A model generated the notes under the pieces. That model was given only the letters and a program-made list of their open reading frames with translations, did not search any database and was not told the DNA's origin. Shown here piece after piece: positions 1,501 through 17,532 of a DNA stretch of 46,447 bases. Every line of letters starts with the position of its first letter. The first letter of the stretch is position 1. The position numbers were made by a program, and so were the translations under genes. The DNA comes from Campylobacteraceae bacterium (GTDB lineage Bacteria; Campylobacterota; Campylobacteria; Campylobacterales; Sulfurovaceae). The stretch lies in the NCBI GenBank assembly GCA_027014605.1, contig JALWDJ010000008.1, forward strand, positions 1 through 46,447, read 5' to 3'.

Positions 1501-2538
1501 TCAACTATCACTATCTTTTATTTCATTATTATCCATAGTAAGTATATTTGTAATTCCAAGAGCCTCTTTTACTTTAGTCTCTATCTCATCTCTAAGTTTT
1601 GTATCCTCTTTAAATTTCTTTTTAACATTCTCTTTTCCTTGTCCTAATTTACTTTCACCATAACTAAACCATGCTCCAGATTTATCTATAATATCAAGTT
1701 TTACACCATAATCAATCAATTCACCCTCCTTTGAGATACCCTCACCAAACATAATATCAAATTCTGCCTGTCTAAATGGAGGAGCTACCTTATTTTTAAT
1801 CACTTTTGCTTTAGCTCTATTTCCAATCTGTGAGTCTCCCTGCTTTAGTGTAGCAATCCTTCGTATATCTATTCTAACTGATGCGTAAAACTTAAGTGCA
1901 TTTCCACCTGTTGTAGTCTCTGGACTTCCATATCCCATCATTCCAATTTTCATACGAATTTGGTTAATAAAAATAACTGTTGTATTTGTTTTATGTAAAA
2001 TACTTGTTATCTTTCTTAGAGCTTTACTCATAAGTCTTGCTTGAAGTCCTACCTGTTGGTCTGCCATCTCCCCCTCTATTTCTGCTTTTGGAGTAAGTGC
2101 AGCTACAGAGTCTACTACAATTACATCAACTGCTCCTGACCTTGCAAGGGTTTCTAAAACATCAAGTGCTTGTTCTCCAAAGTCTGGTTGAGATACTAAG
2201 AGGTTCTCTACATCAACACCTAAATTTTTAGCATAGAGCATATCAAGAGCATGTTCTGCATCTATAAATGCACAGATTTTATCTTTAGCTTGTGCTGAAG
2301 CTATAATTTGAAGAGCTAATGTTGTTTTTCCTGAACTCTCTGGACCATATATCTCTATGACTCTTCCAACAGGTACACCACCAATTCCGAGTGCCATATC
2401 AAGACCAATTGAACCTGTGCTAATTGCTTCTATTGGCTCGATATTTTTATCACCCAATCGAATGACAGTACCTTTACCAAATGTCTTATCTATCTGTTTT
2501 ATTGCCATATCTAAAGCTTTTTTTCTGTTTGCGTCCAT
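1501..2538 (-). CDS. recA: RecA recombinase
   Basis: RecA forms filaments on single-stranded DNA, catalyses ATP-dependent strand exchange and activates repair responses. The 345-residue length is normal. The Walker A motif GPESSGKT is at residues 65-72. A Walker B-type segment [10 protein letters not shown] lies near 140 and the NQIRMKIG segment leading into loop L2 follows near 193. The C-terminus ends in an acidic tail as in other RecA proteins. The ATG at 2538 is preceded by AGGA about 7 bases upstream, and a TATAAT-like hexamer lies at 2563-2568 on the same strand, within the 51-bp gap after tolA, so recA may have its own promoter. Identification is essentially certain. Confidence 0.98.
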
Positions 2539-13417: not shown

Positions 13418-13660
13418 TTACGCTACTTTTTCAAGTGAAACTCTTAGCATACTTTCTATACTTAAATGATAATCTAATGATTCCCATTCAATACCTGTAT
13501 TTAAACAGATAAATTTATAATCTCTTAGTTGCGATATTGTAGCTTTTTGTAATGGTTTGTACCACCCAATAGGTGTAGATATAATTCTATCATCTTCAAG
13601 TTTTACATGGAGATACTCTTCATCAAAATGAACCTCTTTACCTTTAATTAAACCATTCAT
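13418..13660 (-). CDS. DUF2442 domain protein
   Basis: An 80-residue protein matching the DUF2442 pattern: a beta segment EVHFDEEYLHVKLEDDRIISTPIGW, then a Lys/Leu region and GIEWESLDYHLSIESML. The family is known next to DUF4160 genes and often suspected of acting as a toxin-antitoxin-like pair, but its function is unproven. I place the start at 13660 because AAAGGA sits 6 bases upstream; an ATG seven codons earlier (13681) lacks such a site. It overlaps the upstream DUF4160 gene by 17 bp (38 bp with the longer start), so the two are translated together. Confidence 0.82.
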   Translation of the reverse strand: MNGLIKGKEVHFDEEYLHVKLEDDRIISTPIGWYKPLQKATISQLRDYKFICLNTGIEWESLDYHLSIESMLRVSLEKVA

Positions 13661-13871
13661 CCCAAATCCTTTCAAATTCATCTTTATTTTCTTTTATGAT
13701 TTCAAGTGCTAACTTTAAATCTTTCGGTTTTAAGTAATTTTGAACTACTTTTAACTCTTTTAATTCAACTTTTGCAAAGCCGTCACTTCTTGCCACATGA
13801 ATATGTTTTGGTTCATGCTCGTTTGCATAAAAGAAAAACTTAAAACCACATTTATCTAATAAGGTTGGCAA
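13644..13871 (-). CDS. DUF4160 domain protein
   Basis: A 75-residue protein of the DUF4160 family. The typical opening MPT, then GFKFFFYANEHEPKHIHV (about 9-26) with the conserved EPxHIHV motif, and the C-terminal WDEWFN are all present. The start is a TTG at 13871; it has only a weak ribosome binding site, but the MPT opening fits the family. It forms an overlapping pair with the DUF2442 gene. A role as partner in a toxin-antitoxin-like module is inference from the pairing. Confidence 0.82.
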   Translation of the reverse strand: MPTLLDKCGFKFFFYANEHEPKHIHVARSDGFAKVELKELKVVQNYLKPKDLKLALEIIKENKDEFERIWDEWFN

Positions 13872-14018
13872 TATTTAATCTTTATTTGAGTTTTGAATAT
13901 TATATCTAAAAAAACTGATCATTTATTGCTTGTATGATTGTTACTAAAAGAGTATATAGGAGAGAATAATTAGGATTGAATATAAAGTAGAAACTTTTGT
14001 ATATATTCCCATTAAAAT

Positions 14019-14027
14019 GTTATACAC
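14019..14027 (-). repeat. Inverted 9-bp sequence at the 3' edge of the nuclease gene
   Basis: GTTATACAC on the plus strand, i.e. GTGTATAAC in the gene's direction, containing the TAA stop codon. Its exact inverse is at 15039-15047, just before the gene's ribosome binding site. Confidence 0.6.
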
Positions 14028-15024
14028 TTTCAAATTTATCTGATTTTATTTTTTCAATCTTTTTAATAAATTTAATTGTTTTATCTATATTAATAATATT
14101 ATTATTGTCTGTTATTCTAAATTCATTTTCTAAAATACCTACAGTAACACTTTTACCAGTTCTTACAACTTTGGGTTTACTTATTTTAATATTGTTATCA
14201 TTATACAAAACATGACTCTTCCATTTATTTACAATATTTTTTTCAACTTTATTGTTATCTTTAGAATAAAGTTTTATTTTTATCTTACCAATATATATAT
14301 CTTGTTCCCAGCTAGTTTCAATTTGTAAATAAACATAATATGTATCTTCTGAACTCCAATTCCACCAAAAACCTAAAAATCCACCTTGACGGTTTGGTAC
14401 ATAATCCCAATTCCCATCATTTAACTTATTTTTTAACTCTATGTAGAAACCTTTCCAAGCATTCCAACTCCATTTTTCTATTGGTGTTATTTTGTAACTA
14501 TTGATAGAATTTTCAATATTTTGTAAATAATCAGTATAATCTTCAATTACATCATTTTTATAGTTTGCATTATTTAATACATTTAAAAAATCCTTTCTAC
14601 CATAGATTGAATATCCTTTTTCTTTAACATTATCATAATTACTTTGGTCGCCTGTTTTAAAATATATAGGTAATATTTTAGTTTTATTAAAATCTTTTTT
14701 AATTTCTTCAAAATATCTTTTTAATTGGTCGGAGTGATTTTTAGTATTTGTTTTATCCTCAATAATAATTGAATATTCATTATTAACAATACATAAAATA
14801 TCAATATTTTTGTATTGTTTTTTTATCTCAATTTTATGATATGTATTTGGTTTATTAATTTGATTAAAATTATCAAATAATGAATTAATAAATTCAATTC
14901 CTAAATTATATAAATCTTCATTTATATCTTTATTTTCAATTTTTGCCCATTCTAGAATATAGCAAATTATTGCATCTTGACTTAATTCACTTGTCGCATA
15001 ATTAAATATATTTGGTTTGTTCAT
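14020..15024 (-). CDS. PD-(D/E)XK nuclease-family protein (PDDEXK_4-like)
   Basis: A 334-residue protein with the full catalytic signature of this nuclease fold: Asp75 (KNIDIL), Glu89-x-Lys91 (IIEDK) and a following QxxxY (Gln100, Tyr104). The N-terminal NIFNYATSELSQDA segment matches the PDDEXK_4 group. The C-terminal half (about 190-334) is rich in Trp and Tyr and is unassigned. The start is at 15024, where AAGGAGG stands 4-5 bases before ATG, not at 15054. No methylase or restriction partner is nearby. It is flanked by an inverted 9-bp sequence and its synteny looks foreign, so a mobile or defence-related gene is likely, but the target is unknown. Confidence 0.82.
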   Translation of the reverse strand: MNKPNIFNYATSELSQDAIICYILEWAKIENKDINEDLYNLGIEFINSLFDNFNQINKPNTYHKIEIKKQYKNIDILCIVNNEYSIIIEDKTNTKNHSDQLKRYFEEIKKDFNKTKILPIYFKTGDQSNYDNVKEKGYSIYGRKDFLNVLNNANYKNDVIEDYTDYLQNIENSINSYKITPIEKWSWNAWKGFYIELKNKLNDGNWDYVPNRQGGFLGFWWNWSSEDTYYVYLQIETSWEQDIYIGKIKIKLYSKDNNKVEKNIVNKWKSHVLYNDNNIKISKPKVVRTGKSVTVGILENEFRITDNNNIINIDKTIKFIKKIEKIKSDKFESV

Positions 15025-15038
15025 AATCCTCCTTTTTT

Positions 15039-15047
15039 GTGTATAAC
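15039..15047 (-). repeat. Inverted 9-bp sequence at the 5' edge of the nuclease gene
   Basis: GTGTATAAC on the plus strand, i.e. GTTATACAC in the gene's direction, followed 4 bases later by the A-rich ribosome binding region. GTTATAC resembles the R' core (GTTRRRY-like) that begins integron gene cassettes. No complete attC hairpin is visible around it. Confidence 0.6.
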
Positions 15048-15237
15048 GGTGCAAAGCTGAGCGAATTTTTGACAGCGTAACTATTTATTAGAGGACATTA
15101 TATACTTATAAGCTTTAAATATAAAAATAGAAAGACACAATAAATCTCCTGTTATAACCACAAAAATATATCAATTTAAAATATTTTATGTTAATTATAT
15201 TAAAATTATAGCCTCTTTTCGTGTAGTTAACTCTTTT

Positions 15238-15427: not shown

Positions 15428-16042
15428 CTATTTTTTATTAATTAGAAGTTTTAGAAGAAATCCATTTAATACAAATTGTCCAGCCGAACCAACCTCCAAA
15501 GCTTTTATACTATCTGAAAAGGTTTTTAAAAGGGAGGCATCTATATTATATGATTTTGATTTTATTACCTCTATTCCAATTTTTTCTATTATCTCTTTAC
15601 AATCTTTAGCTGATATTCGTTTATGTTTTTGGCTAAACTCATATATTTCTCTTAAATCTAAATTATCTATATCTAGTGATATTTTCTCTATTTTTTTACT
15701 ATTATTAAAAGTTATTATGGGTAGTCTTGATTTTATTGTAGGTAGGATTGATGATTTAGATTTTGTAATAAGTATAAACTCTTTATTTTTAGGAGGCTCT
15801 TCCAATATTTTTAGAAGTTTATTTTGAGATATGGTTGAAAATCTAGGAGATACAAGAATAATAAACTCTCTAACCTCATTTGCTATATAGGCTTTGGATA
15901 TAGCTTCTGAGGCATGTTCTATAAGAAACTCTCTATCTTCACTATTAATAATAGTAAATTTCTCATCTTTTTTTAACTCTTTTAATCTATCTAAAACATC
16001 ATAAGGCTCTTGAGAAATAATTATACTACTTTGTAACTCCAC
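15428..16042 (-). CDS. holB: DNA polymerase III delta-prime subunit (short form)
   Basis: This is a clamp-loader subunit that helps place the sliding clamp on DNA. It has 204 residues, much shorter than E. coli delta-prime (334) but like the short form of this phylum. The sensor-like segment LLKILEEPPKNKEFILIT (about 97-114) and SRLPIITF (about 128-135) are the clamp-loader signatures. No Walker A is present, as expected for delta-prime. The start is GTG at 16042, overlapping the TAG of the hobA remnant by one base (TAGTG). The folP gene that commonly follows holB in relatives is absent; a non-coding region and the nuclease gene follow. Confidence 0.88.
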   Translation of the reverse strand: MELQSSIIISQEPYDVLDRLKELKKDEKFTIINSEDREFLIEHASEAISKAYIANEVREFIILVSPRFSTISQNKLLKILEEPPKNKEFILITKSKSSILPTIKSRLPIITFNNSKKIEKISLDIDNLDLREIYEFSQKHKRISAKDCKEIIEKIGIEVIKSKSYNIDASLLKTFSDSIKALEVGSAGQFVLNGFLLKLLINKK

Positions 16043-16321
16043 TATTTTAAACTCAACTCATTAAATAGTGATGTATCAATAGTTTTATTGAAAAGTTTAA
16101 ATAGTTGAATAAGTTTAATATCTAAAGATACTCCACCATTTTTAAGATAAAAACTATTTGGTACATCATCATCAATAATCCATAAGAGATTACCCATCTA
16201 ATATCTTTTTTATAGCTTTTTGAATAATATGAATCCACTCATATTGGCACTCTTTCATCCAATAGAAACTTGAGTTTTCCTCTCAAATAGTCTCTCATGT
16301 CCACTTGAATATAGAAATCAT
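16042..16321 (-). pseudogene. hobA: hobA remnant (DnaA-binding initiation factor), broken by stops and a deletion
   Basis: HobA binds DnaA domain I and promotes origin opening in this phylum. In the frame starting at ATG 16321, FKWT-stop-ETI-stop-EEN (TGA at 16297-16295 and 16285-16283) leads into YWMKECQYEWIHIIQKAIKK and ILDG, the pattern of a HobA N-terminus. A TAA follows at 16192-16190. A different frame, from ATG 16197, then encodes 51 residues, MGNLLWIID...SLDIKLIQLFKLFN...SLK, closely like the HobA C-terminus, and ends in TAG at 16042. About 85-90 middle codons of the usual ~180 are missing. The position between lysC and holB is the normal hobA locus. Both TGAs could come from CGA by C-to-T change. 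No intact protein is possible. Confidence 0.82.
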
Positions 16322-16326
16322 TAACT

Positions 16327-17532
16327 CTATCTATCTAATTTATAGACAGAGTGAAGAGTTCTAACTGCTAGTTCAGCATACTTCTCATGTATAATCATTG
16401 AGACTTTAATCTCAGATGTTGAAATCATCTCAATATTTATATTCTCTTTAGCTAAAGCAGAAAATGCAGTTGCTGCAACTCCCGAGTGGGATTTCATTCC
16501 AACTCCTACAATAGATACTTTACAAATGTTACTATCAAAACTTTTACCTCCAATATCATGATTAAAGTTTTCAATAATCTCTTTTGCTTTAGATAGTTCA
16601 CTCTCTGGCACTGTAAATCCTAATGAGGTTAATCCATCACTACTAGCATTTTGGATAATCATATCAACATTTATCTGTTCATCTGCTAATTTTGTAAAAA
16701 TTTCTGCTGCAATTCCTGGTCTATCAGATACATCTCTTAGGGATACCCTTGCTTGATTTCTATCTAATGCTATACCACTTACTAAAACTGCTTCCATATC
16801 TCTAATCTCCTCACCTATAACTGTTCCATCTCCATTTGAAAATGAACTTTTTGCTACTATTTTAACACCTAATTTTTTTGCCAACTCTACTGAACGATTT
16901 TGAAGTACTTTAGCTCCAAGTGAAGCTAACTCTAACATCTCCTCATAAGAGATAAAGTCCATCTTTTTAGCTTTTGGTTCAATTCTTGGGTCTGTTGTAT
17001 AAATTCCATCAACATCGCTATATATCTCACAGGCATCAGCTTTTAATGCACCAGCAATAGCAACAGCAGAGAGGTCTGAACCACCCCTTCCTAGAGTTGT
17101 AACTGCTCCATCTTTATTTACTCCCTGAAAACCTGCTACAATAATAACTTTATTATTATCTAACTCTTTTAACATATTAGTGGGATTTATAGTCTCTATT
17201 CTTGCATAAGTGTGAAAATTATCAGTTTTAATACCTGCTTGTTGACCACTCATAGCAATCGCATCAATACCCATATCCTGTAGAGCAATAGATAAAAGAG
17301 ATGCTGTTACTATTTCACCTGAGCTTAAGAGCATATCCATCTCTCTTTTAGATGGATTATCTGAGAAATATTTAGCAAAATCTATTAATTTATTTGTTTC
17401 ACCACTCATTGCAGATACAACTACAACTATATTATTACCATCTTGTTTAGCTTTGGCAACACGCAAAGCAACATTTTTTATGCGTTTTAAATCTCCAACG
17501 CTCGTTCCACCATACTTATGTACTATTAACAT
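16327..17532 (-). CDS. lysC: Aspartate kinase
   Basis: LysC phosphorylates L-aspartate, the first step to lysine, methionine and threonine. It has 401 residues. The N-terminal KYGGTSV (6-12) begins the kinase domain, which also shows GRGGSDLSAVAIA (about 149-161) and the ATP-site segment SDVDGIYTTDPR (about 172-183). Two ACT domains (about 265-401) imply feedback control by an end-product amino acid. The gene overlaps rppH by 7 bp and is followed 5 bp later by the hobA remnant, the conserved order of this phylum. Confidence 0.97.
   Translation of the reverse strand: MLIVHKYGGTSVGDLKRIKNVALRVAKAKQDGNNIVVVVSAMSGETNKLIDFAKYFSDNPSKREMDMLLSSGEIVTASLLSIALQDMGIDAIAMSGQQAGIKTDNFHTYARIETINPTNMLKELDNNKVIIVAGFQGVNKDGAVTTLGRGGSDLSAVAIAGALKADACEIYSDVDGIYTTDPRIEPKAKKMDFISYEEMLELASLGAKVLQNRSVELAKKLGVKIVAKSSFSNGDGTVIGEEIRDMEAVLVSGIALDRNQARVSLRDVSDRPGIAAEIFTKLADEQINVDMIIQNASSDGLTSLGFTVPESELSKAKEIIENFNHDIGGKSFDSNICKVSIVGVGMKSHSGVAATAFSALAKENINIEMISTSEIKVSMIIHEKYAELAVRTLHSVYKLDR

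Follow-up and report, generated by a model that had tools for sequence, protein, structure and literature searches.

Decay of hobA and probable loss of DnaA-dependent replication initiation in a member of the Sulfurovaceae

Two fragments of hobA between lysC and holB

The DNA analysed here (the window) is a stretch of 46,447 nucleotides from contig JALWDJ010000008.1 (C8) of assembly GCA_027014605.1, which belongs to a Campylobacteraceae bacterium of the Sulfurovaceae. On its reverse strand, intact lysC and holB-like genes enclose what is left of hobA (Table 1). An earlier note on this DNA had proposed a hobA pseudogene at 16042-16321 between lysC and holB, and both the matches to the HobA profile and the alignment with hobA of the sister species G008 confirm it. 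When the whole genome was searched with PF12163 (HobA), matches were confined to the lysC-holB interval, where two fragments scored above the curated cut-off: a C-terminal piece at 16048-16194(-), covering profile positions 132-180 (E 1.2e-13), and an N-terminal piece at 16181-16321(-), covering positions 1-47 (E 1.1e-7) and containing internal stops. By itself, the C-terminal ORF of 51 aa gave 54.6 bits (E 1.3e-14). The intact second copy of hobA that the note had suggested looking for was not found in the assembly.

Table 1. Features of the window and of the former dnaA locus on contig C11 of the same genome
Feature	Position	Strand	Description
recA, intact	1501..2538	-	Pfam RecA 1.9e-135 over residues 7-269, plus RecA_C
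holB-like (DNA polymerase III delta' subunit), intact, downstream of hobA	15428..16042	-	Pfam DNA_pol3_delta2; 87% identical to G008 over 203 residues
hobA pseudogene, C-terminal fragment	16042..16197	-	51-codon ORF, profile 132-180; TAG stop overlaps holB GTG start (TAGTG)
Junction of the 266-bp internal hobA deletion	16194..16195	-	Frameshifting; alignment with G008 hobA
hobA pseudogene, N-terminal fragment	16195..16321	-	HobA codons 1-43; PF12163 match and nucleotide alignment to G008 hobA
Second TGA in hobA N-terminal fragment	16283-16285	-	CGA in sister G008
First TGA in hobA N-terminal fragment	16295-16297	-	Leu codon in relatives
lysC (aspartokinase), intact, upstream neighbour of hobA	16327..17532	-	Pfam AA_kinase and ACT domains; 95.5% identical to G008
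Contig C11, S41 peptidase/dnaN interval	S41 ends 14487, dnaN starts 14632		144 bp between; decayed dnaA 3' end

The lesions were defined against the intact 181-aa hobA of G008. In this alignment the start codon at 16321 is preserved, TGA stands in place of codons 9 and 13, and 266 bp, not a multiple of three, are missing at the 16195/16194 junction, in agreement with the note's estimate that about half of the gene is deleted. The C-terminal piece is in a different frame from the N-terminal one and reaches the normal stop, whose TAGTG overlap with the holB start is common to this genome and G008. With two TGA codons and a frameshifting deletion, no full-length hobA ORF of about 180 aa is present. 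The note had explained both TGA codons as CGA to TGA changes; this holds for the second but not for the first, which is CTA in G008, two steps away from TGA, and encodes Leu in all 30 relatives. Similarly, it had placed the C-terminal fragment correctly in another frame, but the 'LDIKLIQLFKLF' pattern that it read there is altered, since Asp replaces the Gly of WIIDGDVPNS, which is kept in 29 of the 30 relatives.

Both its sequence and its position in the order lysC-hobA-holB mark the remnant unmistakably as a member of the HobA/DiaA family (PF12163; PMC5448010). It differs from that family in having two stops, a frameshifting deletion and half of the gene missing, and judged by these lesions it is a non-functional gene. 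HobA has been described as essential in Helicobacter pylori, where it acts on domain I of DnaA (PMC5448010). It reportedly binds DnaA and helps it to assemble at oriC.

Loss of hobA is specific to this lineage

Intact, full-length hobA was found in 30 of the 33 other genomes of the genus, G008 among them, and the remaining three, in which no match was obtained, are 77-86% complete. The comparison with relatives proposed in the note thus indicates that the loss is lineage-specific and later than the split from G008. In G003, a second, N-terminal hobA fragment lies at a contig end (C51:3-113) besides the intact copy. A tree built from lysC and holB joined our genome to G008 with a support of 100, with G026 as the next relative (support 99).

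Along the N-terminal fragment, 14 nonsynonymous and 5 synonymous changes fall on the branch of our genome, compared with 1 and 5, respectively, on that of G008, a pattern that suggests relaxed evolution of this fragment. Excess change was also looked for in lysC, holB and dnaN on the same branch, and none was seen. The C-terminal fragment is better conserved than the N-terminal one (P 0.001), and its 51-codon ORF is probably kept open for translational coupling to the overlapping holB start, to which it would carry ribosomes. Downstream of holB, positions 13418-15054 of the window hold a DUF2442/DUF4160 pair and a gene for a PD-(D/E)XK nuclease, while the gene at this place in G008 resembles argininosuccinate lyase (argH); judged against G008, this part of the window looks inserted or rearranged.

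Deletion of dnaA at its syntenic locus

From the broken hobA, the note had concluded that the lineage starts replication without HobA, or else uses a second copy or another regulator of DnaA. This conclusion did not survive the search for the client protein, as DnaA itself and the oriC signature are missing. The absence of dnaA, oriC and hobA rests on one assembly of 1.98 Mb in 97 contigs, with an estimated completeness of 99.99%. Neither the DnaA_N nor the C-terminal DnaA Pfam domain had a match in this genome, and an AAA search returned two sub-threshold matches only (E 0.19 and 1.85). A hidden DnaA among these weak AAA matches was considered and rejected, as the sequences resemble RuvB and a helicase of the RecD/PIF1 type. 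With DnaA absent, the genome has no domain I surface of the kind that the note had proposed to inspect.

In G008, dnaA is intact between a gene for an S41 peptidase and dnaN. Contig C11 of our genome aligns with the G008 dnaA contig at 91% as far as the opening bases of dnaA; the alignment resumes at 83%, covering the final ~100 bp of dnaA and the whole of dnaN, which is intact. The dnaA 3' remnant on C11 carries a frame shift and a loss of 12 bp. The alignment indicates that dnaA is deleted at its syntenic locus within a single contig. Because the deletion is internal to the contig and the remnant is point-mutated, C11 does not look like a simple assembly gap. Three Pfam domains and the syntenic deletion agree that no dnaA is present in this near-complete genome. 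That hobA was simply lost while DnaA was retained, with another regulator or an altered DnaA domain I replacing HobA, would fit the broken hobA, but with no DnaA in the genome and the dnaA locus deleted we regard it as highly improbable.

The dnaN genes of the two sisters (L084 14632-15705 vs L064 272-1336) are 76% identical, more divergent than the other genes compared; the divergence is present on both branches and perhaps dates from the relocation of dnaN. Elsewhere on C11 (L084 7502-10966), an ORF of 1154 aa for a ribonucleotide reductase contains an internal insertion resembling an intein or a homing endonuclease.

A survey of 397 Campylobacterota genomes that are 97% complete or better found dnaA in 393; those with no match are our genome and three fragmented ones. 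Within the genus, dnaA is present in 27 of the 34 genomes and went undetected in six besides ours, mostly incomplete. The genomes G022, G317, G232 and G389 are relatively complete members of the Campylobacterota with no dnaA match; in G022, a gap at dnaA is likely because hobA is intact there.

The origin of replication

In the Sulfurovaceae, the gene order is ruvC, dnaA, dnaN, pyrG, and at 77 of 80 named dnaN loci dnaA adjoins dnaN, the other three stopping just before dnaN. Both spacers flanking dnaA contain TTWTTCACA boxes; the one between dnaA and dnaN contains DnaA-trios in addition. These spacers match the published bipartite epsilonproteobacterial origin (PMC5043019), and the trios match the published DnaA-trio element (PMC6052347). 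The bipartite ruvC-dnaA-dnaN arrangement, with oriC1 between ruvC and dnaA, oriC2 between dnaA and dnaN, and boxes with a TTCAC core (PMC5043019), is the ancestral state of the Sulfurovaceae; it is missing from our genome, and in G008 dnaA and dnaN lie away from the origin.

Within the genus, the pattern of boxes plus DnaA-trios coincides exactly with the presence of dnaA: both are found in the same 27 of 34 genomes, and a search of our assembly did not find the pattern. Closely paired DnaA boxes number 0 in our genome, 3 in G008, 5 each in G026, G001 and G003, and 17 in G016; G005, where dnaA is present, also has 0. In G016, about 13 DnaA boxes form a regular, iteron-like array of 21 bp near dnaA (C29:9612-9892, L264), unlike the other genus genomes looked at. 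GC skew was uninformative as a locator of the origin, as it follows the gene strand in these contigs.

Both flanks of the G008 origin were found in our assembly with the origin between them absent. Contig C92 follows the left flank as far as the oriC edge and then runs into dxr, while contig C89 starts 219 bp before its match, which begins just past the trios, upstream of pyrG. Loss of oriC in this lineage is likely; it is not proven, because C89 begins at the origin site.

The proximity of this site to the start of C89 is one reason to consider a gap in the assembly, in which case dnaA and oriC would have moved together again to an unassembled stretch, the copy at the S41 site would be a dead duplicate, and a dispensable hobA would have been lost independently. 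There is a precedent in the ancestor, where dnaA-dnaN was duplicated or moved, and the region is prone to be missed: the six other dnaA-less genomes of the genus jointly miss the origin signature, four of them with intact hobA, and outside the genus three fragmented genomes of the phylum gave no dnaA match. However, besides the completeness estimate, three independent losses agree with each other (dnaA on C11, oriC at C92/C89, hobA on C8). Moreover, hobA matches accompany dnaA in 26 of 27 genomes of the genus, all except G032, which is 85% complete, and among the dnaA-less genomes ours alone has a visibly broken hobA. We thus consider the assembly gap improbable, and hold with considerable confidence that DnaA-dependent initiation was lost in this lineage.

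Separation of dnaA from its origin in the sister species

The sister G008 (loci L064, L225), with intact dnaA and hobA, provides a natural case of dnaA parted from oriC. Its origin of boxes and trios occupies ~0.9 kb of contig C40, near the contig end and not beside dnaA, and contains DnaA boxes and five or more trios. Aligned to G026, this part of C40 reads as a worn dnaA 3' end, followed by oriC2 and a worn 5' end of dnaN. The alignment identifies an INTERMEDIATE in G008, in which dnaA-dnaN have moved off and left the origin behind. The order of events would then be separation of dnaA and oriC first, followed by loss of dnaA, oriC and hobA in the lineage studied here.

Condition of the genome and other replication genes

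General decay of the genome, as in a reduced endosymbiont, was considered and rejected: the compared genes that aligned to our contigs, which cover a small part of the genome, are all intact except hobA, and at 1.98 Mb the genome is at least as large as that of G008 (1.9 Mb), which has dnaA. The intact recA of the window is a candidate player in a DnaA-independent initiation of the recombination type. In E. coli, loss of rnhA permits initiation at R-loops. Loss of RNase HI as a permissive change was rejected for our genome, where rnhA is intact in C30. Initiation of the recombination type is therefore possible, recA being intact, but the signal of rnhA loss does not accompany it.

Discussion

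The broken hobA is most simply a consequence of the loss of DnaA, the client of HobA, rather than a puzzle of DnaA regulation. We propose that in the common ancestor with G008 a copy of dnaA-dnaN came to adjoin the S41-peptidase gene, while the origin would have remained at the ancestral site upstream of pyrG, as the remnants in G008 indicate. In the lineage studied here, the chromosome would have become independent of initiation by DnaA at oriC. After that, dnaA was deleted, an event recorded within one contig, oriC was probably lost, as suggested by its absence from an assembly in which the flanks are present, and hobA decayed to the fragments described above.

Replication would now most likely start without a dedicated initiator of the DnaA type, through loading of the RecA/PriA type at R-loops or recombination intermediates, to which we give about an even chance. 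Alternatively, a candidate initiator of the plasmid or phage type may have been acquired. As one form of DnaA loss, chromosome replication would now start from the origin of an integrated plasmid or phage that encodes its own Rep protein, which would have made DnaA, HobA and oriC dispensable. Integrative suppression of dnaA loss is established in E. coli, and such a takeover explains how all three parts could disappear although the genome is not smaller than that of a sister with dnaA, but no Rep gene lies within the annotated part of the window, and we put it forward as a tentative explanation. The choice between these modes of starting replication is much less certain than the loss of DnaA itself.

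Initiation by DnaA at oriC is nearly universal in bacteria, and loss of dnaA is known in organelles. Other cases have been described from insect symbionts (PMC4389277) and, among cyanobacteria, from symbiotic and some free-living species (PMC7198777). In the endosymbionts Blochmannia, Wigglesworthia and Carsonella, dnaA is likewise deleted or a pseudogene while dnaN and other replication genes persist; those genomes are strongly reduced and host-restricted (PMC4389277), unlike ours with its size and intact compared genes. The free-living cyanobacteria Cyanobacterium and Geminocystis also lack dnaA in a genome that is not tiny, and some dnaA-bearing relatives no longer depend on DnaA-oriC (PMC7198777). 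However, they belong to another phylum, and many are polyploid with multiple replication starts; they have no HobA partner gene, and our case includes a sister with dnaA parted from an intact oriC. According to the same 2020 paper, no free-living dnaA-less species had been reported outside the cyanobacteria (PMC7198777).

A non-reduced, perhaps free-living member of the Campylobacterota may thus have abandoned DnaA-oriC altogether, losing the initiator, the origin and the partner of the initiator, a proposal on which we are evenly balanced. If true, this would be without precedent except in cyanobacteria and host-restricted symbionts, and a living sister would preserve an intermediate step, that of dnaA parted from its origin. 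The genome is near-complete and has no initiator, no intact copy of the partner that is essential in Helicobacter and, in the assembly, no origin, in a phylum where almost all genomes surveyed keep dnaA. As G008 keeps all the parts, with dnaA moved from the origin, the order of events becomes readable, and two close species make the route to DnaA independence testable by comparison. The co-loss also supports, from the side of evolution, the view that HobA does nothing important independently of DnaA.
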